Source: Cliona cf. orientalis
Taxonomy: Eukaryota; Porifera; Demospongiae; Clionaida; Clionaidae
NCBI GenBank assembly: GCA_963930775.1
Contig: OZ005695.1
Span: 3,472,001 to 3,536,000 of the forward strand
Length of the DNA: 64,000 nt
Reading direction: 5' to 3'
Part shown: positions 6,701 through 45,871 of the stretch, one piece after another
How positions within the stretch are numbered: position 1 is the first letter of the stretch
Layout: each line of letters opens with the position of its first letter
Notes under the pieces: generated by a model
Seen by the model: only the letters and a program-made list of their open reading frames with translations
The model's database searches: none
What the model was told of the DNA's origin: nothing
Position numbers and translations under genes: made by a program

Positions 6701-9700
6701 GAGCTAACCTGCGTTAAAGTTTCAGACCAACTGTGCGCTTTGTTGTGGAGATAAAACACTTTGTTTGCAATTGCGCCACACCCACAATAATCGAGAAATT
6801 ACGGTTCAAAGGCGTTGCTATGCACGTGTATGGTATTTCAGCATACTATGCGTGATCTGGAAATCAATTAAATGGACCTGGTCGGAGCCGTTCGAAATGA
6901 ACGTAAAGATCGAGCAAGAGTTGAATTTCATTGTTGATAACGGCAGCCGATTGTTCTTTGATGCCCAAGAAGCTAAAAAAAGGTGAGCGAATGTACAGTA
7001 GTTCAATGAATCTAGCTGTATCTAGATGGAGAATTCTAATTAGCGCCTATAGCAACGGGCTCCATGTATGGCAGCTGTACAGACTAGGTAGGTCGAAATG
7101 AAGGCTTATTTCATCTTTGTAACTAACGGTTAGCCTACGTAGATGACGGCAAAGGTTATATTAGAAAGGTTCTTTGGCATGAATACAACAAAACTCAACT
7201 TTGACATTTTTCAACTTGAGGTACTAAAACGTGCATTGCGCGAATAGCTTGCGGATACATATGCCGGGTTTTATCAGATACGGTCACATTTTGACTAGCT
7301 CGAAAAGGTCCATGCAAGTCAAAATCACGAGTTATGTTCAAGCACCCATAGGTGCTTATACCAGGGACATATACAAAATGTGCCTAATAGCGAGTGCATT
7401 GATCAGCAAAATCATGTATTAGCAAAATGTGCCTAATACAGTAGCGGTCAATAAAATGGTGACATTTTCGTTCCGTTCCACTCATTTTCAACCGAAACAG
7501 AACACCCGTTTCTGTCCTTAGACAACAACAATTACTCCAGATATGCATGCGCAACGCAATTGTTAAACGTATGTATGCACATACTATTATTAGTGGTGCT
7601 GGGTGTGGCCGGCCAGCTGTACGGTCACTACTCAACAGCTATCAAAAGTTGCACTTGTCAAAAGGTCAAACATCCAACATAAAGAGCGTGGCTTGCCAGC
7701 TATCAGTCAATTGATTCACTTTACCAATCGTCAAGGAAGATCAGAGAGATGACATACCATACTTACACACTTGTAGACCCTGCAAAAGGCAAGAATTATC
7801 CTTCTGTCTTGTCAGCTGGCCTCATGAGGAAATAAACTCTCCACAGTCCAGGTCAAGAAGATTGTCTCTCCCAGTCCAGCTGATCTAATACCAGACACAT
7901 TCTGTAAAGTCAAGGGGCTAGAAGAGCACCTGCGCAAGGTTGTAGCTTCGGGGACTCAGGCAGAAGTGAAGGCTAAGCTGGGTGAGTTGGAGGGAGGTGA
8001 GGATGCTATTGCCAAATCACCACCAGGAAAGAAAGCTTGCACTAGGAAGGAAATAGCACAAAAGAAAGGAAAGGGAAAAGAGAATAAGACATCACAGTCA
8101 ACAAAGAACAGATTGAACAAACAAGCAGGAAGAATCCTCATAGTTGCATGGTGCTCAGCCTCCTAACCAGCCAAAGCTGCCAGGATATCACAGATTCTCC
8201 TAACAAAGGAACACAGCTTATAACTTCAGAGAATCCAAACTAACAAACACAGTCTCATGACCAGCCATCAGCATCAGTTTCAGCAGATCAGCAAAGAGAA
8301 GTGATACAGCCTCAAGACCACCTGCCTACCTCTACAATAAACACAGAAGGAAAAATCACAGTCTGACGAGCTGTCAATCTCCACTGATCAGCTACCAGCC
8401 ACAGCAGAGCAGCAGCCATCCACCTCCAGAGGTCAACAAAAGGAGCCATCCCACCGTAGCCAGCCACAGCAGAGCAACAGGCCATCCACATCAGATCAAC
8501 AAATAGAACTAACACTATCTCAGCCAGCCAGAGCAGAGCAACAGCTGTCAACCCCATAGGACCGACAAATACAGTCTCATGTTGCTCTCCCTCCATTGGA
8601 ATATGACATGGAAGACCTGATAGATGATCATCCTGATGCTATGTCCCCCTATGAGAACATGGGATATGATGCTGGTAAGACTTTTTGGTTTGTATCACAA
8701 TTTTAATATTAAATGTTAATTTATAGGTGATTAATATAAAATTTAATGTTTACAGGTGCAATTGAGGTGCCATATATTTCCCCTGGTGAGAACATGAAAG
8801 ATTATGACGCTGGTAAGATGCCATTTTGTATTGAGCAGATTCAAGCCTCTCGCTGCACTTGACTGTTGATAGTGTCTGTGCTAGTAGGTAGGTTAAAGAT
8901 TTGGAAGGTGACGTTATCAAGCTGAGAGTAGAAGGTACGTTGGTGTGCTACAGTTGCGTAATTTGTGCACCCATATTATTTTATATCTTTGTCTTAACAT
9001 ATAAATATATCTAGATACCGAGGAAGCCAGGAAAATATAGTATACAGCTGTTGGAGGAACAAGTGGCCGAATTAGAATCAGCTCTGCTCCAAGTACAGGC
9101 CAACTCAGTATCTGGCCCATCTCTGATTCCACCAAGAGGTCTACCTTCATCCCCAAAACAGATGGTTTCAGTGGATGTTTCCATGTCCCACAAGCAGCTT
9201 CAAACCAACACTCCCAAACCACCAAATCACCCACCACCATTGCTCCACCAAAACCAAACACCCTCTAGGCTGCTACCTCGACTTCCCTACTCCATCAGCA
9301 ATTTAACTGCCCTCCACCATTACTGATTAATGCAATTACACCCCACTGCCACCACAACACCCTGCTCCTCAGCTGACGCAGTACCCTCAGCAGCCATTCC
9401 ACCCTCCCCCTCAGCTGCCACCCCACCCTAGCTCCTTCTCAGCTACGTCTCCTTCAGTCAGCATCATCGTCTTGAGGTCGTAAAAAGCCAGCCATTGCTG
9501 GAAAATTGCCCTCTTTGGTGATTAATAAGAGCTCCCTCCTACCTGTGAACACCATCATCAATAAAATTAACATGGAGATGTGGTGGGAAAGGATGGTCAA
9601 ATAAGAAGTATGGCATTAGCACTTGCAAGAGATGCTTTCTTTGGAGAAGAGGTGATGACACAATGTACTGCTCAAGGCTGGGATGACATACCTGGGCTAC

Positions 9701-12700
9701 CACACAAAGTTGATGGAACTCAAGGACAAACTGTGCAAACTCTGCCAGTCCGAGCTACTGGAACAACACCCCAGCTTTTGAAGAGCAGTGGTACAACTGC
9801 AGCCAAGCTTGTAAACGGCTAAGAGCATCGCATGCAGAAATCAAAGAATAAGAGACTCTGAGAAGTAACATTCATAAATACATAAAAATGTAGTTACCAT
9901 AAGCTGCATATTAACTATATCAAGTTGAAAACTTTATTAAATATTTTTCAAGAACATACATTGTGGCACAATAATATATTACATTATGTACCGTATTTCT
10001 TCTGAAAATTCGGCCCTTCTAATTTTTCGGCACCCTTTACCGAATGATTGAAACTAATTTTTGGCAAAGGTCCTCATGTGTATATACTTTAAACAGGAAT
10101 AGAATGCTCACGCAGACAGAATGTTGAAATATTAGCCTCTAAAAATTTGGCGAAGCTAAAGCAATATTATTATTTTCATGCCAATTTTTAGAAGAGATAC
10201 GATACCCATCACTGCTCCCGCAAGTTCTATTATGCATGGAATTGCTTTATTTAAGTGGTTGATGTACTTGTTACACTTCTCTACAGTTACTGTTTCCCAG
10301 AATCTTACAATTCTGTCGATTAACTCCTGCTTTATTGTTGGCTTTACTTTCCTTCTTATGAATTCTTTCATCTTATGCCAGTGATTCTCAATGGGGTTCA
10401 GATCTAGTGACTCAGCTGGAATTTTCCACCAATTGATTCCTGATGAAGTCTTGGACATGATGTGACGTATGCTTAGGATCATTATCCTGCATGAACTTGT
10501 GATGGGTGGGATACTTGGCTTCGATGAAGGGGACCAACATTATTTCTAGGATTTCTATGAACAAGAACAAATCCATTATCCCCTCAAAAACACAGATACC
10601 AGTCTGTCCTTCCTTGGTTATCCCTCCCCAGATGTGGACTTTCACTGGATGTTTAGCCCTGGATGGTACAAGCAACACGACATAAATGTCTATTCTGCGT
10701 GCATAATGCCAGGGCTGCCATAAATTCGGATTTTGTCCGAATATTCGGATTTTCATAGCTGTTTGTGAGGTACTCGGACGGATTTAACAGATCTGGTCAA
10801 AATATTCGGATTTCCAGCTTCTGCTACTTCTACTCTATCAGTATAGATCGACTGAGCCACATTTTCGCTGCTAAAGGGTTAACTAATCTCGATATCCATG
10901 GGTTAATTTTTGTTTGCCACGTGGACAATCTGAGTCAGCAGTTTAGTACATACATAGTACAATACAGTGGCCCTGACAGCTAGCGGTGAACGTCATGTCT
11001 GAACACGGGACAGGTGAAGCCTCCTGCTCTTCCAGCAGCAGCAGTTGCGACCCCAGTACCAGCAGCAGTGATCGTGAAAGTGAACCCGTTCAAAAAAAGC
11101 CAAGGTATACTTGTACTTTTCATCCTGAGTCAAACACGTATGATTGGGCAAGAGTATCTCGAAAGGGCCCTTCATTTGCGTTTTGTAGCCTTTGCAAGCG
11201 AGATATTTCTGTTGCATATGGGGGGCAGAAAGACTTGAGGAGGCATGAAGCGACCACTCCTCACACGTCTGCTAGTACGGCTGTTCGTACATCAACAAGC
11301 CTGAGAAATTATGTTAGTTCAGTTCCAGGCCCTATAGAAGGGACCAGGCTGTAGTAAAAGCAGAGGTGAAATTCAGCTACTTCATAGGAGAACATCACCT
11401 TGCTTTGGCAGTTGCTGATCATTGTTCTAAGCTTTTTTCTAGCATGTTTCCGGATTCAGAGATTGCAAGAGCATTTAAGTGTGGCCGAACTAAAGCTACT
11501 GCAACAGTAAAGGTGATAGCTCAGGATATGATCAAGAATGTATTGGAGAGAATCAGCGACTCAAAATTTTTTAGCATTCAGATGGACGAAAGCACCGACA
11601 TCACTGTTTATCAACAAATGGGTATAATGCTGCGCTACTTTGACGATGTGGATGGCAAAGTATGTTGTGTATTTTACAAGCTAGAACCCGTCATTAGTGC
11701 AGATGCTGAGGGAATTTTTGCAGCAATTGATCGAAATTTTGATGACTCGGGTACAATTTGTTATGCCAATTTGGTGGGAATGGGATCTGATGGATGCAAT
11801 GTGATGCTTGGGTCACGAAATTCTGTTATGACTCGTCTTAGGACCAAGCAGCCATCTTTAGTTTTTTTTCCATTGCAACTGTCATGTTGCTGCTTTTATA
11901 GCCAATCATGCCTGCTGTAAGCTTCCAGATTACTTGGATGATATTACCATTCAAATATGGTACTACTTTCACAAAAGCCCTAAAAGGCAAAGGTCATTTG
12001 AAAATTATCAGGTCTTTACCGAGTGTAAGCCTCACAAGCTGCTTAAAGCTTCTCAAACTCGATGGCTAAGCTTGGAGGCATGTGTGAATTGCTTACTAGA
12101 GCAATATGAAGCACTATTATCATATTTTCGGAGCACAGATGAGGAATCAGCTACTGTTACTCGGATAATAGAAGCACTAGAGACTCCTATAACAAAGGCA
12201 TACCTAATGTTTCTTAGTGATTCTTTACCCATAATCAATATCTTTAATAAGATCATGCAGCAGCAGTCTCCAACTGTACACTTTCTACATCAAGAAATTA
12301 CAGCTTTTGTGAAGAAGCTTCTACTTCGGTTCATGCATCCACGTGCTATTCAGGGTAGCAATGCTGATATTAGCAAAATCAATGTGAAGGACTCGAGCAA
12401 ATACAAACAGCTATTTGAGGTTTTTATTGGTGATCAAGCTAATACCTATGTGGAGGAGTGTGATGATCTGTCTACAAATGATGTAAAACTGTTTCGGGAG
12501 AATTGTAAAATGTTTTGGATTGCAGCTGCTGAATATGCCATCAAAAAATTGCCTTTCAATAACAAATTGCTGGGTACTATTTCTTGGATGCTGCCTTTAA
12601 AGCAAGATTTGGAATTAGAGAATCAAGTACTTGGCGTTGCTGCTGACTTACCCCAGGTTATTCCAGTGGAACAAAAATCTGCTCTCAGAGAGGAGTTTAT

Positions 12701-15700
12701 AGACTATTGTACTTACCAGCTTCCTTCACCTATCACTAGTATCACTAGTATTACTGATATATCATCATACTGGTATCAGATTGGTAAACTTACAGATATA
12801 GCTGGTGAAGTTCGCTATCCACGTTTGTGCACATTAGCGAAAGCAGTCTTGGTGATTCCGCATAGTAATGCTGATGTCGAGCGAATGTTCAGCCAAATGG
12901 GCTTAAACAAGACAAAACTTAGAAATTCTCTAGGAACTGAAACCTTAACTGCACTGTTACGTTTGCAAATGAATTCCCAGGAACCTTGTTATAACTTTAC
13001 TCTAGGAAATGAATTGTTAGAAAAGTGCAAGAATGCAATGGCAACTGTAAAAGACTCATAATTAATTTTTGTACATTATTAATAATCATGATTCTTATTA
13101 TTGCTTACTGTATTTTGAGCATACCAATTGATAAATTTTTCACCAAAAAAATTGATTTAGTTAATAATAGCACCTCAGGATTTCTCAGGCTTTTTCAAGA
13201 AGCCTTTTTCAGGATGTTTGAAGGTTTTATAGGATTTTTTCGCTCAGAAACTTTGGCAGCCCTGTAATGCATACATATAAACTTGTAATGTATGAATGCA
13301 TGTGCAGCTCATTACCGTGGTTTTGGTTTTGGGGCTTTCCCTATTTTTCTACAATAAAAGCGCTGATGGTTTTCAAGCTGAATAGCTGATTCGTCGGTCC
13401 AAATCACATCTTCAAATGCATCCTCCTTATTGCGCTGACACCACTCTAGACGTTTGCGCTTATTCTGCTCGTGTATCAGTTGGCAGTATGCGCTGCCCCA
13501 AAAGTCCACCCTAGAGATGAGCAGCAACATAGGATACTATGTTCTAAAGGAAATCTGAATTCCATTTTCGATACGCAGATGATGGAGCTGGTAGGCAGTA
13601 GTCTTGTCATCCTTCTCCATTTGTTGGTCTACCAGCCCTTTCACTTGTGTGGTGATTTTAAATTTTTTGAGGGTCGACCTAATCCAACATTCCTATCATT
13701 AGACCCACATTCACTATAGTGCTTGATAAACTTGTGAATACCAAATTGCAAGACTTCCACACCTTCCCTCCATCAGCACTCGAGCAGTCGTGTGAGGCTT
13801 GAGTCCTTGAAAGTGGTAGTGCAGAATTTGAAGCTTGTATAAACCAGATAAACATACCAGTCACATACAGTGCATAAAAGCACGCTTCATGGTGGCAAGC
13901 TTATCTTGACAAATGTAGACAAACCGGCAAGTACCAAGGTTACCAAGCTGATGAATGTGATAAAATTAACGTCCAGGTCGAGAACTTAGAGCATAGGAGA
14001 TTATGAAGATGATCACTTTCACTACTGAAGTCGAACGAGGGCCATGTTTACCATGTCAGGCCACCATTGTCTAGATCAGCTTGAAAGAGAGAGCAAATCA
14101 CGCTACAATACCTGATAAAGTATAATAACCCCGGCGAAGACAGTCATTGATGGAGAATGGCAAGCGTTTTAATTCACTAGTTGAAAACGTAACAAATCTC
14201 AATCTACTTGTTAAATATAGACGTGGCTTCGTCTACGTACGTACATAAGAAATGGAATGGAATGGAACAGAGATGCCCATGCAGTATAGCGCAAGCACAT
14301 GCAGTGCTGATGGCACGGCCGGCAATGAAAGTTTATTGAATCGGAATGGAAATAGTTGGCAACGCCATTGAGATGGGACAGAACGAAACTGAAGCATCAC
14401 TGTTTTATTGACCGCTATACTGTAACTAGAAAATATGGTATGGGAAAATGAAATTAATTCTTTTTAAACACATCTTTTAATACTATTATTAATTTGATGC
14501 ACAAGTACATGTACCATTGTAAGCAAGCATACTTGCAGTGGGGGAGTGCAGGGTTTTATCTGGCCCAAAAAAATTTGGGGGAGGGGTGGGGGAAACAGAG
14601 AATGTATAGCTGGACAAATGGGCTGCCTTGGTGATTGGGTACGGGAGGGGGACTCAGGTGCATTAAGGACTGCGAAGAGTAAGATGCATGTAAATGTAGG
14701 GTAACTTCAGATGTCGATATCTCCACTTCTGAATGACATATAAAGTGAAAGTACCAATAGAAACTACTAGCCTTACACTACACAAAGATGGTGACCACGC
14801 CCTCTCAAGGACGTCACAGACACTTTGGTGGCTTCCCAAACGAATGTGCTCTAGCGAGGTAACCTCGAGGAGGCGGTCTACTTCCATGCATTATGAGCCA
14901 GCCTTAACGGCATCTATACTTTCTAAACAAGCTATACTAACTATTCATCGGATTGCTTTTGGATAGCTAGCATACAAAGGTAGATACAACAAAAAATATG
15001 GTTTTGACTAGCGTAAGTACGGACTATACACGCTCATTAATAGTAGCATGAAATATTTCAGAAGAAGCAATCCGGCAGATCAGCTATTTACATCATGGTA
15101 AACCTCTCTACACTCTCAAGGTAATGTAAAAGTACCGTTTTCCTGACCGCCTCTCCAAGACACTGTCTTTCTCCATTGCAACAGCCATTTCTGCCGAGTC
15201 AGCAGAGCAATTGACCTTTAACCCACATAGGCATAATGCAAAAATTAGTGGAGGGCGCCGCGCTGGCGGGCGCGGTTACCGCAAACGAGCCATATACAAG
15301 CTTTATCAGTGTGGACAGTCCTTAATGCTCCTGAGGATGTGCCCCCTTCAGCGTGAAGCATGTGGAGCCATAGCATTATTTAATATAAGTTCGGGCCAGC
15401 AGAGTATAGGAACACATCCTATAACTCAAATATATATTGTAAGCAACGTTAAAATTTTATGAATTTCAATTAAATTTTTTGGTGGGAAACAGAATCTCTT
15501 TTGGAGGGAGATACTTCTTGCTGGGCTCTATACAGATAACCCCTGGAGTGTCATTATCTCATGCAACACCTTTCTCTATGTCATCCTTGAGTTCATCGGC
15601 CATGGATGTCAGACCATTCTGCCGGAGAGACTTTTCCACCTCCTCACGGGAGATGTCTCGAATCTCTTGCTCCTCTCGAAGAGAGAGTTCGATAGACTAC

Positions 15701-18700
15701 AGTTTGTCATCATTGAATCTCGTCAACAGAGTACCAAGCACCTGCAGCTCTTCCCTGGTCAGAATGTGCCCTGAGGGAACTGTATATGGGTCATTCCATA
15801 AATGTTCAACATGAAAAATGACAACCCAATTCAGTTTTCCCTGAAACTTGGTAGACATGTAACCACAATCAGTATTTGCGGTCAATGTTGTATGGCTTCG
15901 GAGATAGGGCCAGTTGAAGTGGCTAGTTTTCCACATATTTTGGACCTACCTTACTACCTTCAATTGGCTATTTCTTGAATAGAGTTTAGTTTCATGAAAA
16001 ACTAAACACACCACATCATAGTTCATGTTCTCGGTACAAAGAGGAATAATAGCACAATGTTCTGACCGAGTATGAAAAAATTTGAAATATCCCGAACGGG
16101 TGAAAAACAAAATTGATCTTTTTTAATTAATAAACTAATTAAAGCTCCACCTCAACTGTAGTCCACCCACCCATTAAGCACACCAAAAGAAAGCCGAGAA
16201 CATGAGCTATAATGTGGTATGTTTAGTTTTTCATGAAACTAAACTCTATTCAAGAAATAGAAAATTGAAGGTAGTAAGGTAGGTCCAAAATATGTGGAAA
16301 ACTAGCCACTTCAACTGGCCCTATCTCGGAAGCCATACAACATTGACTGATTGTGGTTACATGTCTTAGTACCTATTACATGTCTACCAAGTTTCAAGGA
16401 AATCTGAATTGGGTTGTCATTTTTCACGTTGGAACATTTATGGAATGACCCATATAATATAGCCCTGTTTATACACCCTGATCCAAATTGAACTGAACTG
16501 GTTAAACTGCGTTTACATACTAGTGCTTAATTCAGATTAACATTTTAATGTCCTGTTACTTTACATGTAATCCACATTCAATCCACATCAGAATATGGAT
16601 TCTAATCTAATCTAGATTAAAAGTGAATTAAGGCATTTATACAGAAACTGGATTAGTTTAACCCAGGTTCCAATCTGGATTAAGGGCCTAGTGTAAACAG
16701 GGCTTACGTGTGAGGAGCGTGCATGTGTGCATGATATGTGTGTGAGCATGTACATGTATATGCATGAATAATAATTATTATTATGTGTGTACATTTACAC
16801 GTGTGTATGCAGTGTGTGTGTGCATGTAATTATCATGACTATGTAAATAATCCTTTGTACTTCCATTTATGGAATAATTGACCCTATGACATTGTATTTC
16901 CTGTTCTATGAGAGATTAGATTAGCATACCAAACACAGGCGTGTTTCCCTGTTCCCAAACCACAGCGTAATATTATGAACAAACAGAACTCTGTCTACCA
17001 CACTCTAGTCTTGCAAGCCAACCACTCCTATGCAGAGAGAGAGTGAAGGTCTGGTGAACGAATTTACTTCATTTTGTTCCAAGGTACAATATAGGAACTA
17101 CCAATGAGATTATAGATTCATGTCATGTTACCAGTAAATGTGTGTGCAAAGAATATAATTAACGTGCACATAAGACTATTCTATATGCTCTCCCCATGCC
17201 CCTGAGCCAATTATTGAGCGCTAGCGGGCCCACTGTGTCTGCTGACTAGGGTATGCCAACTAAGGAAGAGGTAATCTTAAACTTTGTACAGTGACCAACG
17301 GAGTTTGTGCCTACCTGGTGTTTAAGAGTCTGCTCATGCTCATACCAAAGCTATACTTCAAATGTCGTCGTTTATCGCTGTTTTTGGCCATTGCTGCTTA
17401 TCCAGTGTCCTCCACTGCAGTGATCTTGGATTTCTTCTGCTGATTGAGACCACAGAGAAAATAGCAAGCAAGCGCACTTATCATCGCAAAGTGCATTGTG
17501 GTTAGGTACACATCACATGGAATAAACAGAAGTAGGCTCATTCACCAGATCCTCTCTCACTGTGTAGGAGGGCAGGGTTCTATCTAGAAATTTGGGTTTG
17601 GGGTGGAAGGGGGCGTGGCACTTTCATGCACAGTCCCTTCCTCCAAATCATTAAATATTAGTTAGACACTGTTTAGGAGGTTTCTGTGTGATTTAGAAGA
17701 CTGAAGGACTCCATAATACAGAATCCCGAGCGAAGCGAGGGTTCTATGAGAGCCCTGAGGTCTTCTAAATCACATAGAAACCGACTCAACAGTGTCTAAC
17801 AAGTTTAGCTTTGTATTGATTGCTGGAGCCAGAGGGCAAAACTTGTAAATGACTATGAAAATTTTGTAGGTGACTATGAGATATAGATACCTGTCAGTAG
17901 CTAATCAAATTGCAGTATTTGTACATGTTGCAGCTATAATCTAATAGGTATTTGTGGGTTTTAGGTGTAGCATACATGTAGTTACTTGTATACTCTTTGA
18001 TATAATTCAGAAGAATGCTATTTACATGTATTTCAAATAGTATACATTCCCCACCTCCTCCCTCTCCCTCCCTCTCTCTTTTTTGTCTTTCTACTTTTCT
18101 TTGGGGGAGAAGCTGGGTGCTTTGGGGGGGGGGGGAAGCTTCCCCCCTGCCGCCCCTATGGATAGAACCCTGGAGGGGATGGCTCACAAGACTAACCACA
18201 CTCAGCTACACACATTAGGAGTGTCCCATTCTCTCTCCACTTCATTCATTCATACCTGTTGAATTGGAGCTAGCTTCTCTCTCTCTTGGTGTCTCTTCAG
18301 TAGATGTCTGCTCACTGGTCCTATCAGGAATAGACACTGCCGCTCCATCTTCACTGCTTGCCTCTATAACAAAATCAATTCAGCCATGCAGTTAATAATC
18401 TCGTCAACTGTGCAATATGTGCCTTGTATTAACAGGAATGGTGGGGTAGTTGGGTAGAATAATTCAAAGAGTTTGCACAGACTACATCTTGTATGGCTAT
18501 TGAAAAGTGAAGGGAAGAGAGAAATTCTCAGCAGATAAACCTCTCACTTGATAGGTTATCAGATATACATGAGGTGGCTGAGTGGTGCCTTTGATACACC
18601 CACACACTGAGTAGCAATACATACCAGAAGGTTTCCCTCCCTCTGCCTGTACATCACCAGAAGACTCTTCATTCTTAGCTGAACCTATAGGGAATACATT

Positions 18701-21700
18701 TAGTGCAAAGATGACCCAGATTAGTGTTGATAACTCAATAATATTTAATTAAGCTAGAGAGAATGTCTCCTCTCTCCAACACACGTAAACTAACACACAT
18801 AAGTGCATGACATCCATAAAGGGTCACGGTCAAATGCGATCTAGCAATAATTTACTATTCAATAGGAAGTAATTTTAGTTGCCCTGTGTTGTCATCAATG
18901 GTAGTCATAATAATTATAGGCATGTGTACACACAATGACTTGTCACTTACTGGTACGGTCTGCTCTCTCCAGAAGACTCAAAATTTCTGAGTATCCTTTC
19001 CGCCTTGCAATATCAATGGGAGTTTGACCCCTCTGTAGTAATGCCACAAACACAAAGTAATATCAACAGTCAGTCATCCTAATTGAGGGCAGATATGTCG
19101 TATGGATGCACGTTAAATTGGGACTTCAATTTGTGATTTGAGCTGTACACACCTTCAGCTACTCCAACTAGGTTTCTATGCTCAGTGATCTATTGTCCTC
19201 CAGGTCTGCCAGACATGCTTCACCAACCCCATAGTACCTTTAGTGCAATGCCTAAAGCCCTATACTAGTGACATGTCCCAATACCCATGCATACAACTAG
19301 CAGCTCAACACTTACATTGTCTTTAATATCTAGCTTGGCTTGGGATTCAATTAACAACTGTGCCACAGCCGTGTGGCCATTGTAAGAAGCTGCATGGAGA
19401 GATGTGTAGCCTTGCTGTGGAGAAAACTATGGCTAATAAATTTATTGGTTATTAATAAAGGTAATAAACCTTATTTTTGTAGTTTGCTCTGGCTCCTTTG
19501 CTAATCAAGTACCTAGCCACTTGAGGATGATTATTGAGACAAGCAATATATAAGGGAGTAGCACCATATGGGCCCTGTGGTACATAAAATGCTAACAGCA
19601 GAGATGAATGCATAATTATTATTATTATAGAAATATGAAAACTAGCTCACTAAACAGTGGAGCTTAGTGAAAGCAAAACCGGGTACCATGATTGTAAACA
19701 TAACCCAATGTATTAGTGCATACACTAGTCTAGTGTACAATGTATATGCACATCGTTTCTACCCTGCACACACATAACATGTCAGTTGTGACATTTTTGT
19801 TCACACAAATATCACCATGGTTCAATGGTTAGGTCTCCTAGTATGTGATCAGTTCTATCATGGTGCCTTTTTGTCTAGAAAGTTTTTGTAAATAACTGCT
19901 TTCTGTTGGGCTATCTATAACGTACTTTTTCGACTGTCTATCCACAAGCTAATCATAGGTAAGGGTTGACCATCACGTCTACAGGCTAGCACAGCTTTAG
20001 ATTGCTACCGTGAGCGCATGCATATATAGGTACTATCATGTAAAAATTTAATACCATTGTTGGACAGACATTAATAATGTGATACTTTTAGTTGGTAGTT
20101 ACCACCAAGAGCTACTAGATACATACAATTGAGTGACATGGATTCTGTAATACATATCAGCAGCAGAAAACAATGCCATGCATCTACACCCACAGTAATC
20201 ACTAGACTAATAAGTGGTGATGAAAATCATCTGTGTGGGGCGAGACTTTGTGAAAGTCATGTCAGATCAGTCAGGTGCATGAAATTGCATACTGGGGTAA
20301 TAGCTAAGCCTGAGAAGCTATCACGAGAGTGAAAGTACCATACACATATAGATTGCTAGTAGTCCAATGATATTGATCACCTGTACTTTATTACTTTAGT
20401 TGGCATGCCAGACCATCATGCCTGTAGCCAGGTCCTGAGGGTAGAGGCCTCCAAGCAGTCATCTTCATGCTAAAGTGAGTACATCTACCATGCAGTGATA
20501 TTAATCGTGGATCTGAGCCTTGCCAGAACTAGTGGTCCAGCACTCACCTTCTCCAGTTCATGCCTTTTCCTACACTGTATAGGTCATCTCAGTCTGAGCT
20601 TTGTGCGCGCAATGTGCATATACGTGTTAAAAAGTAACTCTCTCCTCACTGAAATGATCACCCCACAGTACATTATACACATATAAAACCGCTTCCTGTC
20701 TCTCGTGTATTTGGGACTCGCTCGGGCTCGCCCCGAATTAATTAATGATAGCAAAATCACAATAATATTATTAATTTCACACATACCTCAATAAAAACAT
20801 GCTCTACTACTAAATGACTTCACTCACAGTATAGATAGTAGAGGGAGGATTGGGTTGCCTCTTTTACTATCCATGCTCGCAGTGAACTTGTAAACATGTA
20901 GTTAATTGACTACGGCACCCCCTGCTAACTGCTTCACAGAGGACTGTCAGTCTATATGCCGCTGGTACTCTGACCAGAGTAGTTGTTTGATGGAAATCCC
21001 AGGTTGGGGAGAATCCTAGGATCCACCAGCCTCCTCCTGGTGACAGGCATGCAGCTAGCCGGTTACCAGAGTGAGTTACGGCTTGGGGCCCATAATATAC
21101 GTCAGAGGTGGGCCTACCACGACCTCTGACGCCATTCCCCCAACCATAGGACTAATCACGTCAAGGCAAGCTTGACGGAGAAAATATACAAAAATAAAAA
21201 ACAACAAAATAAAATAAAAGTGTGGTGGGTGAGGAGGGTGAAAGTTGCTCCTCTATTCATGAACGTTCTGCTGATCGATAGCTACTTCTCAGTGCTGCTC
21301 TCATGTGTCTCTAACTCATCGTGAGTCAGCTATAAATAGGCGAGGATGCAGCCCTGGCAGGTGCATGGCTACTTCCTGCCAGACTGGTTTGGACTGGCTG
21401 CTACATGTTTCTCACAACCTTGCAAGGGCTGCCTGTAGGGCAGCAGCCCTTACAAGGTGTATGATGTGTACCTCTCAATTATCCTACTTTAATGACTCAT
21501 TAAACTTCATTTATAGGAATATTGTAGTAGTAGCAAACTTCAATCCAAGGTACGTGTACGTACTTCCTATTAATGATGTCCGTTGTTGGAAGGAATTTAC
21601 CAATAGCACTCATTGCACAATCAATGTGAAGGCCTAGGGATGAGGCTAAATCTACATTCAACAGTAGGCTTACATGTGTACCAGATTGCTTCAAAACTTT

Positions 21701-35711: not shown

Positions 35712-36914
35712 CTGAAGGAAAACAAGTAGCCACGTACATGAGTATTGGCATATCAGCCAGCAAATAATCATTATTTTGCAGAATGTTATTGAACTACTAT
35801 GAAAGCCATGCAAGGCTTACTGCAGGTCTAAACCATTAGCCTCACATTGCTACAGAATTTGTAGGTAGGTGTGGTATGGTAAAGACATTGGGTAACCAGT
35901 GGGTTATAGAATTATATGGCCTATTGGCCTCTGGTCTTGTGGCTTTATGACCAAATGGCATTAAGCTAAGCAAACAAGTTGTCCCTATTCGAGGTACCAT
36001 GGCATGGACTACTCTAGCCTGTTCCCACGTCTCTTGCTAGGAATAGCTTAGTCTCGTGAACCAGACCACTCCCTCCGCAGTGCTGGATGACCCATATTGG
36101 AATGTGAATATGACCAATCAGATTCAAGCTAGAGTAGTGATTAGAAATTGTGAATGCACATGGAGTAAAGATCACAGTGTGGTTATCAAAACTTGTACAT
36201 GTCTGAAGTAAGATCAATGGACCATCTGCAGACACTGGTGACCACACTACTATTATGCCCATATCCCAGCCAGATACTTTCCACTATGTCACAAAACCTG
36301 TGCCAGAGTGGCCAGATCCTCCCTCCCATGTGCTGGTGATGCAATACATCCAGTGCTGCGAAGGGAGTAGTCACGAGAATAGGAAGGAATAGCTACTCAT
36401 GCTTGACTCCATGTCAGTTTTGATCTGACACTGAATGAATGTTAACTATCAGATCGGTGAAAAGATATGCATTCACTCATTCGATGATCCTTCAGGGCCG
36501 AAATGCAGCATGCACCGTACAATGATCCACACACTTACAATGAATGTGCCCCTTTACTGTTGATTTCTATTCTGTGTTCTGCGCTGCACGTGCAGGTGAC
36601 ACGTGATGCACGGTATTTGAAATGTACATAAGCGTGAGTGTTCCTGCAGCTATTAATTCATGACATCCATGGAGCCTCGTAGAAAAGCTCCATATGCAGC
36701 CAATTATAGATAGAGAATGGTTTGGCAGAGAATTGGGATGGAACTCCCATATCACACTATAGCTAATAAATCTCAATGTTGCCCTGGGAACCATGTACCA
36801 CATCAACCATCTCTTTCTAGATACTGGTGATGTACTAGCAAAACCAGCACTCCAAAGGACAGCTCTCAGGACATTATATTAATAATCATTCTGATGAGCT
36901 ATTTATTATTATTT
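35712..36914. other. upstream of the first exon found; repeats, no first exon recognised
   Basis: 35930-36070 and 36370-36490 match blocks in 59395-59600 (GGCTTTATG.CCAAATGGC, GGTACCATGG, GGTGAAAAGATATGCA). This is a repeat family and not coding. I looked here for the missing 5' exon of the ROC-COR-Death gene and did not find one. Confidence 0.45.
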
Positions 36915-37625
36915 ATTCAGTCCAAGTCTGTACCTAAGTGAGCTTTGTCATGCTGTTGAGGATGTATGTGGAAAATGTATTTCTCCATCTGCTGTGTGTA
37001 TAGTTATTCTCATGCATGAATTTACTTGCAAGAAGTTGCAGCATGCAGCCAAACAGCGTTTGCTACAGTATCGTGGAAGGTACATGGAATTCAGATGTAC
37101 CACTGTGACTGCTTTGTGCTTATTGATGAAACAGGTTGCAGTAGCAAGGATCATACACGTACATTTGGCTATGCCAAGAGAGGGGAGTGCTGTGGATCGT
37201 AGGTGGCTTCATAGGGATACAAGAATATTGGCTATTGCTGCTATGTTGACTTCTGGCATTTTAGCTGTAGAGCTAATGTCAGGAATAGTCAATGGCGATA
37301 AATTCTTTGATTATGTAAGAGGATCCCTAATCCCAGAAATGTTACCATTTGATGGCAAGAATCTGAAATCGATTGCTGTTTTAGACAATTGCTTGATCCA
37401 TCATGTTCGACAAGTAACCCAATTGTTCAAAGATGCTGGGATACTAGTCTTAATTCTTCCTCCCTATAGCCCTGATTTCATGCCAATAGAGAAAACATTC
37501 AGTTTTGTTAAAGGACCACAATGACCTATGACAATCCATGAATGATCCAGCAATTCTTATTCAGGAAGCATTCGATAGTGTGACTAGCTCACAATGCTAT
37601 GGATGGCTTTCAAGTTGTGATTTAT
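36915..37625 (+). pseudogene. IS630-like (DDE_3) transposase, broken
   Basis: An N-terminal helix-turn-helix-like part (CKKLQHAAKQRLLQYRGRYM, about 37030-37085) is followed by the first Asp in FVLIDETGCSSKDHTRTFGY (about 37116-37175, other frame). The main frame then gives FFDYVRGSLIPEMLPFDGKN, the second Asp in VLDNCLIHHV (about 37385) and Glu in LPPYSPDFMPIEKTFSFVK (about 37490). The last two are 34 residues apart. Frameshifts near 37090 and 37190 and a stop at 37522 break it; the C-terminus resumes near 37541. Such proteins move elements into TA sites. No terminal repeats were located. Confidence 0.75.
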
Positions 37626-37835
37626 GCACAAAATTAAAGCCAATCAAATCAACTTTCATAGGAATAGTCTATCGATAGCTATATTTTTTGGTAACAATAT
37701 TATGTAAAGTCACATATTGTACCATGCATACACAAAGATCATGATAATTGGTTTAGAGCTTCCTAATGTTATTACTGTTGCTTGCAACTCATCATACTGA
37801 TCCTTGCTGATAGCACCATAATCGAGTAAGGCATG

Positions 37836-38355
37836 TCACTTTTGAAGCTGGTCCAGGTGACGTAGCTGAAGTGGCAGCAGCTGTGGTAGATGTAGTGCAA
37901 GTGGTTGAGCTGGATGTAGTGGCTGAAGATGGTGCAGATATAGATGCTTCATCATTTGCAGAGCTTGAAGATGACTGGAAAAATCGCTTTTTAAGAGCCT
38001 GTGTGATCGAGTCATGTTTTGATATTTACCCATCTCCATCATATGGGCCCGTGCTCTCTTCTGCTCTGCAGAATATCGACTGCCATGTGTATCTTTCATC
38101 CACTTTAGCCATCTTTGCAGTATGCTTATCATACTGTGTACTGTGAGGAACCAGGCTTATTGGATGCCGCTTTAGCCATGGGGGACTTTGATCTTGATCG
38201 CTGGGATCCCTTTTGCCTTGCTTGTCCTTTGAGCTATAGCACTAAAGTGCAAGTTTGGTTTTTTGCCTTCATACCTCTCCAAAAACTCAAGTAACTCGTC
38301 ATCATCCAAAATCCACTTTTCTACCCTCCAATCCATGTCCAGGCTCATTATAGCA
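37836..38355 (-). pseudogene. small unidentified ORF region
   Basis: The minus strand from ATG at 38355 reads MSLDMDWRVEKWILDDDELL, then EFLERYEGKKPNLHFSAIAQ. It shifts frame into a Lys/Arg/Ser-rich stretch, then a Gln/His/Leu-rich tail by 37836. Not recognised. Its position beside a DDE_3 transposase suggests a transposon accessory ORF, but this is inference. Confidence 0.3.
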
Positions 38356-39350
38356 AAACTAACTTATCAATATCAGGCTGAGGAATATCACTTGGAAAGC
38401 TGCTTAATGGGCTTTCCATTTAATAATGATACACCCCCACGGAAGAGCCATAATTACTTCTGAATGGTCTAAATTTACCGTAAATCAAGAAATGTGTGTT
38501 GCATTAAAGTCATGCGGTTCAGTGTCACTTTGATCATATTAAAAATTAATGTCATCAAAATCTTGCGAATTTCAACCTTGGGATACTTGCACAGAGTATT
38601 TAGCTATATACAGTCTCTCAATCAGAATCGCAAATGGGTCACTAATTTTACTGATCTTTTCAGTATTGGATATATATTGCTTCTGTAGTATCAGTTTACT
38701 GCTGCAATACTGCTGATACTAGTTGTTAGCCTCCTCTGTTTCTCTCTGCCAGATTCCAGTCTGCTAATGTGTAGGCAGAGCTTCCATTTTAAAAATACTA
38801 TAGCAAACTCATAACCAGTAGTGCAGGTAGACTAGCTACAACACAGCATGCATTGGTGTGTGACTACGTGGTAAACAACTGGCGCATGCGTGTGGGCATT
38901 AATTGCGTTGGTTAAAATAATGTAATTATATTCATGCGCCTAGGCTATACCACGCATGAATACGCATGAATAAGATGCATGCATAAATTTTATGATATTA
39001 TAGGGTATACCATTTTAATGAGTTCTTGACAGGCAAAAATAGGAATGAAATCCCGATGGGTAAGTACCCAATTTAAATAGATAGTTACCATGAAGACAAT
39101 AATGAATGCGGGGAGGGGGGGGGGGGTTATCACACAAATGACACTTAGTCTGCACCTTGTTGCATTTCAATGAGTCTTGGAGGGCTCAAGTCCTCTTTTT
39201 AATGATGGTTAAAGTCAATAATTAGGCTTCCTGAGGGGGAAATTTAGTCTTTCATGGGGTATATCTTTATATATAGACCAATATAAGCTGTTTCATTCAT
39301 CAAAAGCTATTCCTTTCTGAACAGCTGACTGATAGATCTTGGCCATAACG
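38356..39350. other. intergenic sequence, nothing recognised
   Basis: AT-rich, with a G-run at 39110-39127. No coding signal that I can support. Confidence 0.5.
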
Positions 39351-39654
39351 TACAGTAGCTGTCAATAAAAAGATGGCGTTTTGTATTCGTAGGATGATCG
39401 TAAAACGTGACCATTGGTAGTAATTGCACGCATTAGATCCCAGGGAGTGAATGTAAACACGGAAATGCAACGTTGATTTAAAATGTTATTTCGTCTGTAT
39501 ATACGGTATTTAGTACGATATTTTAATCATGTACATGTATATGGTAAAGTGCAAGATCACTGGTTGAAAGAACGAGAAGACAGAGGACGAGAAGATACGC
39601 GATGTCGAACAATCCTCCGAAGAAGAACAAGCCTAGCCTGAGGGCTGAAATAAA

Positions 39655-41235
39655 GCATCTATATGGAAGAATGACTCCACGGTCTATGAAATGCGAACTA
39701 GCTGTATGTACGTGATAGCGAGTTACGCGAACCATGCCCACACTTCCTTCCGCATAATAAATATGTCAAACCGTGCCCCACAGTATTCAAATACTAGAGT
39801 AATGTATAATATATAAATGCAGCGCTAGTGCTTGCGCATTGCATATTATGCAAAAGTAATTTACTCCCTTTCATACGCAAGCGCTCTTTTACCATGCTTT
39901 TTTGAACATTTGAAAGAAAGATATATATTACTCTTGAGAGAGCTGCTGCAGAGTATTGACTGATTACTTGTTCTTTTGAGAACACACTTTGGGATCTGTT
40001 ACATAAGCCAAGTAAAAAGTGCGGATCTATATGGATGAACGACTCCTAATTTTCACGTTAGCATGACAGGGCTTGGGTTCTGGGTACCTGTTAATATTTT
40101 TGCGATTCGTTCTTAGAGCTTGGGCCTGTAATCTACGCGCCCACTGACGACCTGATCTCTAGGTTTTGAAACAAGAGATTGCTGGCAAGATCTCGGGACT
40201 GTGCCACCTGCAACATTCCTATGAGGCAAGAAACACGAAAGGACATCACAGATCGTCTTGTGTGGCGGTGTCCTCAGTGCAAGATAACCAAGAGCATCAG
40301 GGAGGGAAGTTTTTTTCGAAATCTAGGCTATCTTTACAGAAATGGCTCCTTTTAATCTATTTTTGGATGAAGAAGTATCCTATAAAGGATGCTGCATCTG
40401 ACTTCAAGATAGACAAGAACATGGCCATTGATGTTTACAGGTGGTTGAGGGAGGTGTGCTCAACTAAACGTTTGGTCACACCGGTCATTCTGAGAGGCCG
40501 GTGGATGAATCCCTGTACAGGCATAAACCCAAGGTAATTTATATGTTACACACATTATTTAGTTCTTACCCATACTGAAATTATTTTTCAGTATCATTGT
40601 GGCCGCTCAACCAGCACAGAGGTATGGGTGTTCGAAATGGCCGATACCTCCTATTCACCAGCACTAGGGTTCATGCAGCTGGTCGCTAAGAGGGATGCTG
40701 CAACACTTTTACCCATAATTCATAATCATGTTGCTCCGGGTATGATTATACATTCTGATCAGGCAGTAATGTACAACAGGGTAGGAGGGTAGGCTCCTTA
40801 CCCGGGGTAGAATCCCATGGTATAGTAAACCATTCCGTAGAATTAGTGAATTCCACGACTGGAGTCCATACTCATTATATTAGAATAGATCCAAAAGAAA
40901 GATAAAGAAAATGATGGGGTGCCTTGCAATGGAGATCCCTGGCTACTTGGACGACTTCATGTGGCGAAAGCAACATGGATAAACCCAGTGACTGGCATTC
41001 AACAGCATCATTCGAGACAACGCTGCACAGTACCCTCTTCCATAGCTGCCAACGAACATGGATACCTTGCTAATTGTTAACCTTAGTCATGTAATTGTTA
41101 ATGTTTTAATACTACTTATCATGGATATCTATATATACGCCGAAGTGTGGGCATGGTTCACGTAGCTCGCTATCCCGTACATACAGCTAGTTCGCGCTTT
41201 GTAGACCATGGAGTCATTCTTCCATACAGATCCGA
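39655..41235 (+). mobile_element. Merlin DNA transposon with about 95 bp inverted termini
   Basis: The arms at about 39655-39750 and 41139-41235 are inverted copies (GGAAGAATGACTCCA, GCGAACTAGCTGTATGTACG, ACCATGCCCACACTTC). Between them lies a Merlin transposase. Target duplication is unclear (left ATCTATAT, right ATACAGAT). It splits the first exon of the cargo gene of element 2. Confidence 0.65.
40140..41060 (+). pseudogene. Merlin (IS1016/ISXO2-like) transposase, broken
   Basis: A zinc-ribbon-like start CATCNIPMRQETRKDITDRL, then CPQCK (40200-40300) is followed by SKSRLSLQKWLLLIYFWMKK and YPIKDAASDF (40310-40410). The first catalytic Asp lies in VDESLYRHKPK (40501-40533). An intron follows (AAG|GTAATT ... 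TTTCAG|TATC, 40534-40591), then STEVWVFEMADTSYSPALGF and the second Asp in IIHSDQAVMYN (about 40750). Stops and shifts after 40780 degrade the C-terminus, though MMGCLAMEIPGYLDDFMWRK-like remnants persist. These are the features of eukaryotic Merlin transposases. Confidence 0.8.
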
Positions 41236-42589
41236 AATAAAGGTCTTCAAGCAAAAGAAACGTGGTAAGAATGTAAACGTAATTGGGGTTGGAGAAGCAC
41301 ATGTACCAGGATCAGTAGAGATAGCTAGCAATCAGCCAGTTTGGTTTTAGATTCTGTTTATTTACTTCTCCTAGCACCCTGCTATCTGATCTTTTGGCCA
41401 GATGAAGAAAACGTGTCCATGGTGAACAAAGCAGTATTGTTAGTATTGAAAGCGATTTTGACACCTTGGACATGGGGACCATGTGTCAAGTGAAGCAGCG
41501 GTCCAAACTTTATTCTGGAAGGTTGCATCAGACGAGTTTTTTTTCATGCAGAACTTGTATGGTGTGTTGCTTGATACTGGTTTTACTTGTCTGGAGGGTC
41601 AAGGGCAAATGTTAGTGTATCGTATGCTTTATGCTACTAAATTTTTCCTGGTAGGATCAAAGAATTCAATGCAAATGTTAGAAGGCGAGTTCGTGGATGG
41701 AGATTGGACCCCTTTCAACACCACTGGTGATGAGCAAGACGACAATGCCAGTGATAATCCTCAGGCGAAAGATGATACTACTCCTCCCTCTAAGAAAGTC
41801 TGTAGACAGAAGCTGGGGAAGGAAAATTCACACCAGCAATCAAGTGGTATTGACCAAACTGTACATCTAGTGGTAACAACTACATATGTATTGACTTGTG
41901 TATTGCTGTGTGTAGCTGGGAAGAAAACTTCAACTCCAACCTCACAATTAAAGAAAAAGAAGCCCAAAGGCAAGCTTGTCTTGTGACGTGTATATGCTTG
42001 ATACTTATTTTCTTCAGCTATTGCGAATGTACTTTGAGTAACACAACACGGTGGTGTAGCAGCTAAGAAGCAAGAGGGTGCAGGCAGTGATACATGTAAG
42101 AATGGACAAGTGAACATCAAGAGTGTAGATTCCATAGCAAGCAAGATGGTGACCAACTGAGGTACATGTACACGATTATACTACGAGCATGTACTCGTGC
42201 AAGCCCTAGCACTTTTTCTTAAGCGTACACTAGGCATCTATACTTAGTACCTAAATAATCATTGTCATAATATTTAATTTTCATGAATGTTCTTTTCTAA
42301 CATAGAGGTGGCTGGTGAGAGAAGAGAGGAGGGCCAAACCTGTATCTTTCATAGTGGAGACATGATCATGAATGTGACTGGCAGCAATGCTGCGACTGGC
42401 TCAGGTACATGTGCATACTTTACAACCTCGTCTGTCATTGTTAAATCATTATACTGTACTACTGTAACATTACTAGTCTAAGAGCTCCCTAGAGCACAAA
42501 ACCTTTGGCGCATTGCATGGCATTGGCTGCACAAGCAGGCGATGACAATACAATGCTATAGTAGCTTCCCTTTACCCACTTTCAATGTT

Positions 42590-43320
42590 GCAAGGGTAAA
42601 GGACCAACTGCATGATCATGAGGGCTGGGGGTGAGGCTACAAATGCATGTGTTGTTCAAGATTTAATGGCTCACAGCAGCAACAACCTTAACGTGTTGTA
42701 TCGAATACCACACTCATGGCAGTGCCTACATGCATCAAGTCAGCTTCCAGCCTCCAGGAGTCCTTGAGGACAATGACCATAATATTATATGCAAGCAAAT
42801 GACTGTCATGCCGGCCAAATCAGAGCTGCCACAGTGCTCCAATCAGTGATGAGCTAGTCATCTTGGATCTACAAGTATAGCTAACTGTCATACATACCCT
42901 TTGAGTTGAAAGGAAACCACTGTCGTTGGCTTCATCCGTCGAATGTTCGCCAACGAGCGGAAGAAGGCGGCGCGGCGGTGACCAGTGTCAATAATTATCC
43001 TACTGCGCATGCACTGAGGATTAGTATAGTCACATAATTATAAAGTTACCGTATATAGCGCATGACACACAATGTTCTATTTATACGTAGAGGCATACCA
43101 GCGATAGCCTGGAAAAGTCAAGAAGCTTAGAATCAGCAAATGATGCCAAAAATGATGAACGAAGCGTTTTCGGCGAAATCCACACAAATCGTGTTTGGAA
43201 CGTCATAAGAAACCTTACAACACTGATAATTGGACTCGCAAACGAGGTATGTAGTAGCTAGCGTGGTAACAGACAGACAGACAGACACACAGACACACAG
43301 AACGACTACTATCGTTATTA
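42590..43320. repeat. interspersed repeat with GACA run, copy 3
   Basis: Matches 27880-28588 in order, with ends TGAGGCTACAAATGC... and (ACAG)n ACGACTA. It lies between exon-like segments of the cargo gene in element 2, so probably intronic there. Confidence 0.65.
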
Positions 43321-44689
43321 AGAGTGATGACAACGATGAGTGTGGCAACATTGCCGGCAGTGGTGACAAGGAAGATGATTCAGGTGCTTTTGATGTACAG
43401 TCTACTAATGCATAATTATACATGTGTGCATGAACACTACATGTACATGTATGCAGTGTACAATATATTGCGTTCAGTTGCTTTATATAGTGGCATAGCC
43501 AGGTGACTTTCCCCTACTCCTTGACTAGATCTGCAAAGCACTGTACAATGTATAACATGTAAAATGCATACAATGTTTCTATCACAGATTTGCTATTGGA
43601 AATGGAAGTTAAAGGATTGAAAGAGTCAGATTATCTGCTATTGAGGATTTTATCAGAAAGGGTAAACAACAACAGAAGCTGCGACTACCACAAACACAGC
43701 CACAAGGTCCCCTGCCACTACCACAAGTTCCTGCACAGCCATTAGGATCTGATGATAGAGAAGATAGCTTGAGGTGTATGACAATGACTTTTACTGTGAC
43801 TACAGCAACTTGTATGGCACTCCAATGAATACCTCCAGCTCTCCTAAGCACTCTTACCTTCAAGATCACAAGCCAATACACCATTCGGATTCACAACCAT
43901 CATCACAGCCTGACTCTCAGGTCAACTGTTAAGATTATCAAGCATCACCCCGGAATCTCACTTCTCCTACCGTTCAGATTCACAACTGTCATACTGTCCC
44001 GAATCTCACCTCTCCTACCGACCAGATTCTCATCTCTCCTACCATCTGGATTTTCACTATCATGATCCTCGGGCATCTACATCCTACCATTCCAATCCTC
44101 AACCAACTTCTGTTCAGCCACCAAGGTGTAATTCATCAAGCCGAAAACAAACACTAAAATATTACCATCCTCTGCAATCAACAAGGAGAAATTGAGCGAC
44201 TGTGTCAGCGTCCTAGACAAGTACCCACACCTGCACACGGAAAGCAAGATAGCTACCGTGGTCACCAAGCTTGCACTGGAGGTGTGTTTTGGTGAGAAAG
44301 TTATGGCTATATATGCCGTTTCTGGATGTAGGGAGTTCCATGGATTACCCATCAACGAGCTTTCCAAGCTAAAACAGGCCATATTTAATCTCCTATCCCA
44401 GTACTGGTGAAATCCACTGGAGTTTGAGCCCACGTGGGTGGAGTGCACACAGTCCACTGGGCAGAGCTGTAAGAGAGCCGGTCAACCTGCAGCACACTAA
44501 CTTGAGTAGAACTAGAAGCTCATAAAGCAACCCCAACTGTACATATAAAATTTTGTGTAACTGCTGTGTTGATTCATGCATAATCACATTGTACAATCGA
44601 ATCAATTACTTTAAAGATGTAAAACATATAAGCATGTACAGTGTCAACTAAGTAATTACTAATAGCCTGTTGCAGCATCTTGTACCTGG

Positions 44690-45560
44690 GAATAACACTA
44701 CGTAAATGTCTAATATATTTCCTACATGTACATTTATAAATATGTACTGTAGACCAAAATGCCTCTATTCTGTCAATCAGTTTCTCCTTTGTCCTTGGCT
44801 TCACTTCCCTCCTGATATACACCTTCAAATCGTGCCACATATTAATAGGATTGAGGTCCAGTGACTCGGCTGGAATATGATCCCTTTCTCCTCGAGATAT
44901 CACTGTGCATAGCGTGACGTATGCTTTGGGTCGTTGTCGGCCATAAACGTGTGAGCTGGGATAGGACGTTCTCGATAAACGGCACAAGCGTCTTATCAGG
45001 TATCTCTGTATAAACAGTAGCTTCCATGATCTCATCAAAGATGCATATATCTGTCCTGTCACGAAGACCAATACCCGCCCAGACATGTACCTTGACAGGG
45101 TGTTTAGCTCTGTGTGTATGAAGAGGAAGAGAGGGGTGGGCATTAATAATAGTATGCTGATGCATGACATGATCTTTAAGTGTTGAGCTGAAGCTAGTCA
45201 CATACAAGTACATGTAGTAGTACTTATGTTGTTTATGTGCATGTACATCTTACTTTGGTTTGGGCCTCGGAGGTTCACCACGCTTTCGGCAGCAAAAGCG
45301 CCGGTGAGTCTCAAGCTGAACGGTACATTCATCAGTAAAGATGACCTCCTCAAAATCTTCATCCTTGTATGCTCCATAGTGTTGGGCCCATGCAAGTCTC
45401 TTCTCCTTGTTCTGTGCTCAAATGAGCTGGCAGTAGTTGCTTCCATGAAAGGTCCAGCCAAGCGAGGTGCAACATCGATAAATAGTTCTAAGAGAAGTGT
45501 GACGCGGCTAGTCTTCTGGTTGTCTTTGTGTAGAAGCCGGCTGATCGTTTGTGGTTAGTG
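44690..45560 (-). pseudogene. Tc1-type DDE transposase of element 2, catalytic Glu codon lost
   Basis: Minus strand: CTSLGWTFHGSNYCQLI (45480-45430), AQHYGAYKDEDFEEVIFTDE with the first Asp (about 45340), RKRGEPPRPKP, an intron 45253-45110 (CCAAA|GTAAGA ... CACAG|AGCT), AKHPVKVHVWAGI, the second Asp in MADNDPKHTSRYAQ (about 44940), and ESLDLNPI followed directly by NMWHDLKVYIRREVKP (about 44860-44800). The Glu expected after LNPI is absent by an in-frame triplet loss. A stop follows RYAQ and frameshifts lie near 44920 and 45280. The intron position and phase match element 1. Confidence 0.8.
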
Positions 45561-45871
45561 ACCCCGTGGCGAATGGTAGAAAATTCGCTGAAGCTTATAC
45601 GAGCTGTAGACCATTCATGCTTCTGCTTCTCGCACCTTGCTTGGCTAGCTACGTTACACGACTGTAGGTACGCTCATACCTCTTTAGTGTGATCATTGCT
45701 ATTGATTTGGACTCTGCCCAACTACAAATTATTGTCGTACTTTCTCCTGCAAGTACACAGCGTTGGCGTACTACACTTAACATGCAACATTAACAACAAC
45801 TGTGAATAGTGCATCGTTGCACAATCATCCTACGAATGTGAAATGCTAACTTTTTATTGACCACTACTGTA

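Follow-up and report, generated by a model that had tools for sequence, protein, structure and literature searches.

In the demosponge Cliona cf. orientalis, a clade of Tc1/mariner elements is shown to carry, as its usual form, two genes between terminal inverted repeats (TIRs), one coding for a transposase and the other for a protein with a BEN domain, which are mostly convergent and lie on the same strand in some sub-clades. Two members of this clade, elements 1 and 2, are found in a stretch of 64,000 nucleotides of contig OZ005695.1 (C7:3472001-3536000; hereafter the window), within a 216.8 Mb genome. Wnt domains were found at three sites of this genome (C4, C8 and C19), which marks it as that of an animal and, with its overall character, points to a sponge. 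Ordinary Tc1 elements carry one gene. The first-pass annotation of the window had proposed that each element pairs a BEN-like cargo gene with a D34E transposase gene, and that the retention of the second gene across divergent families marks a functional partner. The analyses reported here uphold the retention, while the role proposed for the partner draws on analogy and on the properties of the element ends.

Two genes between terminal inverted repeats

The most direct evidence came from exact pairs of element ends. The terminal sequence TACAGTAGNNGTCAATAAAA had at least 100 matches in the genome (50 per strand), and the same sequence read backwards, used as a control, had none. Pairing of facing ends within 16 kb yielded 16 exact TIR pairs among the ends listed, 12 of which enclosed both genes and four neither, and no pair enclosed a single gene; the question of whether TA-flanked copies carry both genes, raised in the first-pass annotation, was thus answered in its favour. 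Eleven of the 12 pairs with both genes measured 4.0-6.5 kb and one 15 kb. The four pairs without gene matches were L011, one of 573 bp, L007 and L014; fragments of both genes are retained in L011, and neither a transposase nor a BEN gene was detected in L007 and L014 by sequence and profile comparison. Among 68 unpaired ends, both genes were present within 9 kb inward at 17, the transposase only at one, BEN only at one and neither at 49.

The association was also evident from the distribution of the two genes. A single transposase query gave 153 matches (319 candidates, 150 scored), and the listed matches were merged into 121 loci; 137 BEN loci were obtained by merging the matches of Pfam BEN, of one class-1 protein and of one class-2 protein. 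A BEN locus was located within 4 kb of 89 of the 121 listed transposase loci, in 73 cases convergent, in 16 on the same strand and in none divergent, and the transposase was upstream in 12 of the same-strand pairs and downstream in four. Within 7 kb, the number rose to 100, one of them divergent. Counted per BEN locus, 89 of 137 were near a transposase, whereas random placement of the BEN loci brought 1.0 on average and 6 at most. A chance position of the cargo beside the transposase is ruled out by this proximity and by the contents of the TIR pairs.

Long open transposase frames together with clear TIRs were observed in several families, namely in L031 (368 amino acids), L034 and L035 (349 each), L042 (412), L044 (399) and L045 (336), and the group therefore includes more than fossils; the BEN frame of L035 has 94 open residues only. 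Four related class-2 copies (L026, L027, L028 and L029) keep BEN frames of 520-728 amino acids, and a scan for TA-flanked TIRs found none at these loci, among others. On C6, between about 159000 and 942000, a series of same-strand BEN and transposase matches spaced 4-10 kb apart resembles a repeated block, and eight of its ten BEN matches carry stops. No relatives were found in viral contigs, with the transposase alignment A2 and the L034 and L048 transposases as queries, or in bacterial and archaeal genome contigs, with A2 as the query.

In the window, both elements were confirmed as TA-flanked and Tc1-like, at the positions where they had been proposed and with the cargo on the plus strand convergent with the transposase on the minus strand (Table 1). 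Both are degenerate, their two genes carrying stops and frame shifts. The end motif TACAGTAG was found at 7437 (+), 39351 (+) and 45864-45871 (-), and its matches in the window amounted to 12, against 2.4 expected from shuffles; the right end of element 1 is the variant TACAGTATAGCGGTCAATAAAA, and the TIR pair of this element was detected by the scan. Between the transposase pieces of element 1 and those of element 2, identity is 52-67%; the two therefore represent different families, as the first-pass annotation had held, within one clade. The likeness of their cargo proteins, claimed there as well, was weak in direct comparison of the two broken copies (best match 32% over 37 amino acids, E 0.024) but plain through better-kept relatives. 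For example, C7:3481595-3481705, in the cargo of element 1, matched the BEN region of L016 with E 1.3e-6, and the BEN domain of element 2 is about 40-50% identical to the BEN regions of other elements. The N-terminal module and KEN stretch of element 1 gave weak profile matches (independent E-values, i-E, of 4 and 0.056), and the second half of its transposase matched DDE_3 below the cut-off (E 0.0047, 17.2 bits).

Each window element is also split by a nested transposon, an addition to the first-pass annotation, which had missed both. The hAT-like element interrupts the transposase of element 1 in an intron-like gap and has the 6-bp direct repeat TAATGC on either side; the target duplication of hAT elements is usually 8 bp. 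The ISXO2/Merlin-like element within element 2 has long inverted ends, and its positions 40592-40765 matched PF12762 (DDE_Tnp_IS1595) with E 6.5e-5 and 23.4 bits, slightly below the cut-off of 27. Elsewhere in the window, a 755-residue open frame at 3948-6212 (-) contains a COR-A domain (Roco-like, E 5e-10).

Table 1. Two-gene elements of the window, their parts and the transposons nested in them (positions counted from the first nucleotide of the window)
Feature	Position	Strand	Evidence
Element 1, degenerate two-gene Tc1-like transposon	7437..14424	.	TA-flanked TACAGTAG/TACAGTAT ends; cargo +, transposase -
Element 1 cargo, N-terminal module (LVSWPHEEINS ... TFCKVKGLEEHLRKVVASGTQAEVKAKLGELEGG) and basic KEN region, in more than one frame	7715..8166	+	translation; weak profile matches
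Element 1 cargo, coiled-coil-like stretch (LLEEQVAELESALLQVQ)	9015..9150	+	translation, by eye
Element 1 cargo, BEN-like domain, frame-shifted	9476..9819	+	pieces C1d, C1e; similarity to L016
Element 1 transposase, second half of catalytic domain (QDNDPKHTS ... LDLNPIEN), broken	10204..10651	-	sequence comparison; DDE_3
Nested hAT-like element with CAGGGCTGCC/GGCAGCCCTG ends, outside the two-gene unit	~10710..13264	+	Dimer_Tnp_hAT E 2.3e-8
Element 1 transposase, first half (IWTDES...KPKPR)	13315..13638	-	sequence comparison
Element 2, degenerate two-gene Tc1-like transposon	39351..45871	.	both ends exact
Nested ISXO2/Merlin-like element, outside the two-gene unit	~39645..41245 (limits by eye)	+	DDE_Tnp_IS1595
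Element 2 cargo, N-terminal module (YLIFWPDEENVSMV ... MCQVKQRSKLYSG) and basic KEN region	41329..41857	+	profile i-E 0.0015; translations
Element 2 cargo, BEN domain, 78 residues open, then stop	44174..44407	+	sequence comparison
Element 2 transposase, second half of catalytic domain	44688..45102	-	sequence comparison
Element 2 transposase, first half (IFTDEC...KPKPK)	45253..45468	-	sequence comparison

Identity and joint evolution of the two proteins

In the PDB, the catalytic domain of the transposase matched Sleeping Beauty (1.4e-25), and DDE_3 was matched by the four transposases scanned (1.1e-19 to 7.7e-23). In alignment A2, D56 and E91 are invariant in all seven sequences with a D..34..E spacing, and the D34E assignment of the first-pass annotation was borne out by this spacing and these matches. 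An N-terminal helix-turn-helix was recognized as HTH_32 in L044 (35.9 bits, cut-off 33.7), the other three transposases scanned remaining below the cut-offs. Judged by its DDE spacing, TA-flanked TIRs and N-terminal helix-turn-helix, the clade belongs to Tc1 (DD34E) within the IS630/Tc1/mariner superfamily. With Sleeping Beauty and Tc1 it has in common the catalytic domain, the D..34..E spacing, the TA target and the short TIRs, whereas the elements described here are longer and carry a conserved second gene; the usual single-gene layout of Tc1, which is not strictly defining, was replaced by a two-gene one in 12 of the 16 TIR pairs.

The cargo protein begins with an N-terminal module (FLVFWPDEDSYSEVPESKIV...IQVKERQKVYTGVLVAVGSK; FLVxW...CxVK) and a basic segment, continues with a coiled coil and then a proline-rich linker (these two assigned by eye), and ends in a BEN domain. 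Searched with a class-1 profile, the N-terminal module was matched in element 2 (i-E 0.0015), element 1 (0.056) and class-2 members (0.04-4) at the expected place, which is suggestive of a module common to both classes; in the two frames scanned against Pfam, the module had no match. Concerning the C-terminal domain, Pfam BEN (PF10523; curated cut-off 23.2 bits) was exceeded in 36 of 51 listed loci, and in two more once neighbours in frame were included. Among two-gene elements, this applied to L026 (7.6e-10, 39.3 bits), L031 (5.0e-7, 30.3 bits) and L034 (5.2e-6, 27.0 bits), L042, L044 and L045 being slightly below the cut-off, and a BEN domain at C1:24914389, in a cargo sharing 50% identity with the L016 cargo, passed at 35 bits. 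The BEN profile check set out in the first-pass annotation was therefore negative for the two window cargo pieces, which Pfam BEN did not match, and positive for these better-kept elements. Of ten class-1 cargo frames, five matched BEN but stayed under the cut-off (13.4-20.2 bits), and five had no match. Against the PDB, the class-2 profile A3 retrieved BEND3 (8.4e-13) and BANP (4.4e-4), while the class-1 profile A1 retrieved no BEN chain (best E 0.38, unrelated); aligned with each other by hhalign, the class-1 and class-2 domains gave E 1.7e-5 and a probability of 79%. The Pfam scores and the PDB profile matches rule out a chance likeness, and on these comparisons the cargo is a BEN protein.

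The two proteins also vary together, as a test of co-evolution suggested in the first-pass annotation bore out. Both domains are present in 25 elements; across the 14 that were left after de-duplication, distances between BEN domains were correlated with those between transposases (Mantel r 0.86, 0 of 9999 permutations). The split between the two classes accounts for part of this value; within classes, r was 0.90 for class 1 (116 of 9999, n = 6) and 0.49 for class 2 (448 of 9999, n = 8). At the amino-acid level, BEN had a mean divergence of 0.67 and the transposase one of 0.38, and the co-variation extends to BEN domains merely 19-36% identical. Signs of constraint were found in the ratio of nonsynonymous to synonymous divergence (dN/dS) of BEN, which was 0.10 and 0.16 in the two close pairs L006/L010 and L009/L016; at a synonymous divergence (dS) of about 1.75, four pairs joining L009 or L016 to L019 or L021 gave 0.17-0.19. 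These results bear on the possibility that host BEN genes were captured once and have since been carried as passengers without use, to which we give hardly any credence: it is favoured by the occurrence of BEN loci without a transposase, but it is opposed by dN/dS well below 1 in these six pairs, by co-variation over such divergent BEN domains and by the lack of any TIR pair with a single gene.

A second two-gene group with a SHOCT-tailed partner

The best 150 of 548 DDE_3 candidates (150 scored) had been intended as single-gene controls and failed as such, since the five elements inspected carry a partner of their own. None of these 150 matches is in the BEN-clade list, and five lie within 4 kb of a BEN match. 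In all five elements inspected, namely L030 (nested, 351-2290), L033 (201-2284), L046, L047 and L048, a second, convergent gene with a SHOCT-like tail was found. Partners of this type were located within 1.5 kb of 117 of the 150 matches, every one of them convergent, and were not found in 33; random placement yielded 1.0 on average and never more than 6, and the SHOCT profile alone was matched in 89 of the 150. Beside the 121 listed transposase loci of the BEN clade, no SHOCT-type partner was found.

The C-terminal tail reached 37.7 bits with PF09851 (SHOCT; cut-off 27) at the best loci, and 25.4 bits, slightly below it, in the L033 protein. This profile is short and, with E allowed up to 10, also has matches in 11 of the 14 control genomes, and the partner had no convincing match in the PDB; the family name is thus weak, while the association itself is not. 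The SHOCT partner is unrelated to the BEN cargo, and its carriers form a second Tc1/mariner group. A broader proposal, which we hold tentatively and rate somewhat short of even, is that two-gene Tc1/mariner elements are the rule in this lineage, with at least two divergent clades having each gained an unrelated partner (BEN in one, SHOCT in the other) in the same convergent slot, and that their transposition would need a clade-specific end-binding partner.

Element ends and the role of the BEN protein

The ends of most families are rich in CpG. In a pooled analysis of 18 chosen elements (12 of class 1 and six of class 2, with L041 and L043 left out), the observed/expected CpG ratio at 25-225 bp from either end was 1.62-2.38 in class 1 and 1.61-1.97 in class 2, compared with 0.36-0.61 in the 300-bp flanks, 0.63-0.75 at 575-975 bp inside and 0.56 as the window average. 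CGCG density at class-2 ends rose to 83 per kb, and the palindrome ACGATCGT was present in 12 of 28 class-1 ends, some of them from related copies, and was not seen inside. Across 27 TIR-mapped elements, near copies included, the ratio exceeded 1 at 46 of 54 ends; the other eight were one each of the decayed E1 and E2, both of L007 and all four of L041 and L043. The four same-strand elements examined have the CpG block at both ends, including the non-promoter end. As for proteins that recognize such sequences, the excerpted texts of PMC11472053 and PMC10206803 describe BANP and BEND3 as binding unmethylated CGCG, and that of PMC11472053 presents both as CpG-island binders and the functions of BEN proteins as chromatin-related. 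The cargo resembles them in its BEN domain, and BANP also in its coiled coil (PMC11472053, in excerpt), but BANP and BEND3 are host chromatin proteins, encoded outside transposons.

By analogy with the Myb-like protein of Harbinger, the BEN protein may be an element-encoded DNA-binding cofactor of transposition. According to the portion of PMC9179366 available, the Harbinger protein contacts the transposase, enables the nuclear import of the two and binds the TIRs, and it evolves under weaker constraint than the transposase with a congruent tree. The present elements are like PIF/Harbinger in having an element-encoded partner that is more diverged than the transposase and co-varies with it, and differ in their DDE_3/Tc1-type transposase and in a BEN instead of a Myb/SANT partner. 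The BEN protein would oligomerise via its coiled coil, would bind the CpG/CGCG-rich repeats about 25-225 bp inside both ends in most families, and could aid the transposase in finding or pairing the ends. We infer in this way that it binds the ends, contacts the transposase and is required for transposition, and we regard the case as evenly balanced. Hence, of the functional partnership put forward in the first-pass annotation, retention stood, through the TIR pairs and the co-variation, and the role itself is a matter of inference.

Several observations weigh against the cofactor reading. Cargo genes outside elements, which the first-pass annotation had named as a difficulty, may exist: 38 of the 137 BEN loci lie farther than 7 kb from any listed transposase and may be host genes or relics, and 89 are beside one; conversely, 21 of the 121 listed transposase loci have no BEN within 7 kb. 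In the near-identical L031-L033, dN/dS of BEN was 0, 0.43 and 0.88 and that of the transposase 0.64-0.91 (0-0.15 in other transposase pairs), and distant, saturated BEN pairs gave 0.31-1.13. In addition, the BEN carriers L041:2019-7297 (0.95, 0.00) and L043:1761-6994 (0.57, 0.40) have CpG-poor ends, and our confidence was slightly lowered, from a little above even, because of these two. The SHOCT-partner element L030:351-2290, the sole one with both ends mapped, is CpG-rich at its ends as well (1.70, 1.16), and the CpG-rich ends could be plain promoters or CpG islands. In view of L030, L041 and L043, CpG-rich ends were dropped as a mark of BEN elements.

The same ends admit other roles for the protein. 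VANC proteins are thought to act as anti-silencers for plant VANDAL elements, and a BEN protein sitting at unmethylated CGCG might similarly keep ends or promoters free of methylation or heterochromatin, with no part in cut-and-paste. We consider such anti-silencing unlikely: end CpG far above the window average in most families suggests escape from methylation, and BANP and BEND3 read unmethylated CpG (PMC11472053, in excerpt), but L041 and L043 lack the CpG blocks. Rather improbable is a regulator of transposase transcription, acting by auto-repression or insulation, although both ends of convergent elements are gene starts and BEN proteins have chromatin-related functions (same excerpt); the four same-strand elements examined keep the block at the cargo's 3′ end (in L030, one of the four, a nested element begins inside the measured stretch), and the same slot is taken by an unrelated protein in another clade. 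Steering of integration by tethering to chromatin such as CpG islands, for which the CpG-island binding of BANP and BEND3 speaks (PMC11472053, in excerpt), is very improbable, given that the pooled flanks of the 18 elements are CpG-poor.

Tc1/IS630 elements with extra genes are already known from ciliates, where the available part of PMC3464196 describes Sardine, Thon and Anchois (and TBE and Tec); it gives tyrosine recombinases and hypothetical open reading frames as their extras and names no BEN or SHOCT. A full-text literature search, which did not cover Repbase and in which sources were available in part, found no published Tc1/mariner element with a BEN or SHOCT gene; within the same bounds, neither the animal host nor partners of the BEN and SHOCT types nor their cross-family retention were found in print.

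Tc1/mariner elements serve as the textbook example of a self-sufficient transposon with one gene, and gene-delivery tools are based on them. A second gene that is clade-wide and co-varies would imply that, in part of the superfamily, the element itself encodes a partner with which it works. The contribution of the partner to transposition becomes a directly testable question, and BEN domains on animal mobile elements represent a possible route for the spread of chromatin domains or for their use by the host.

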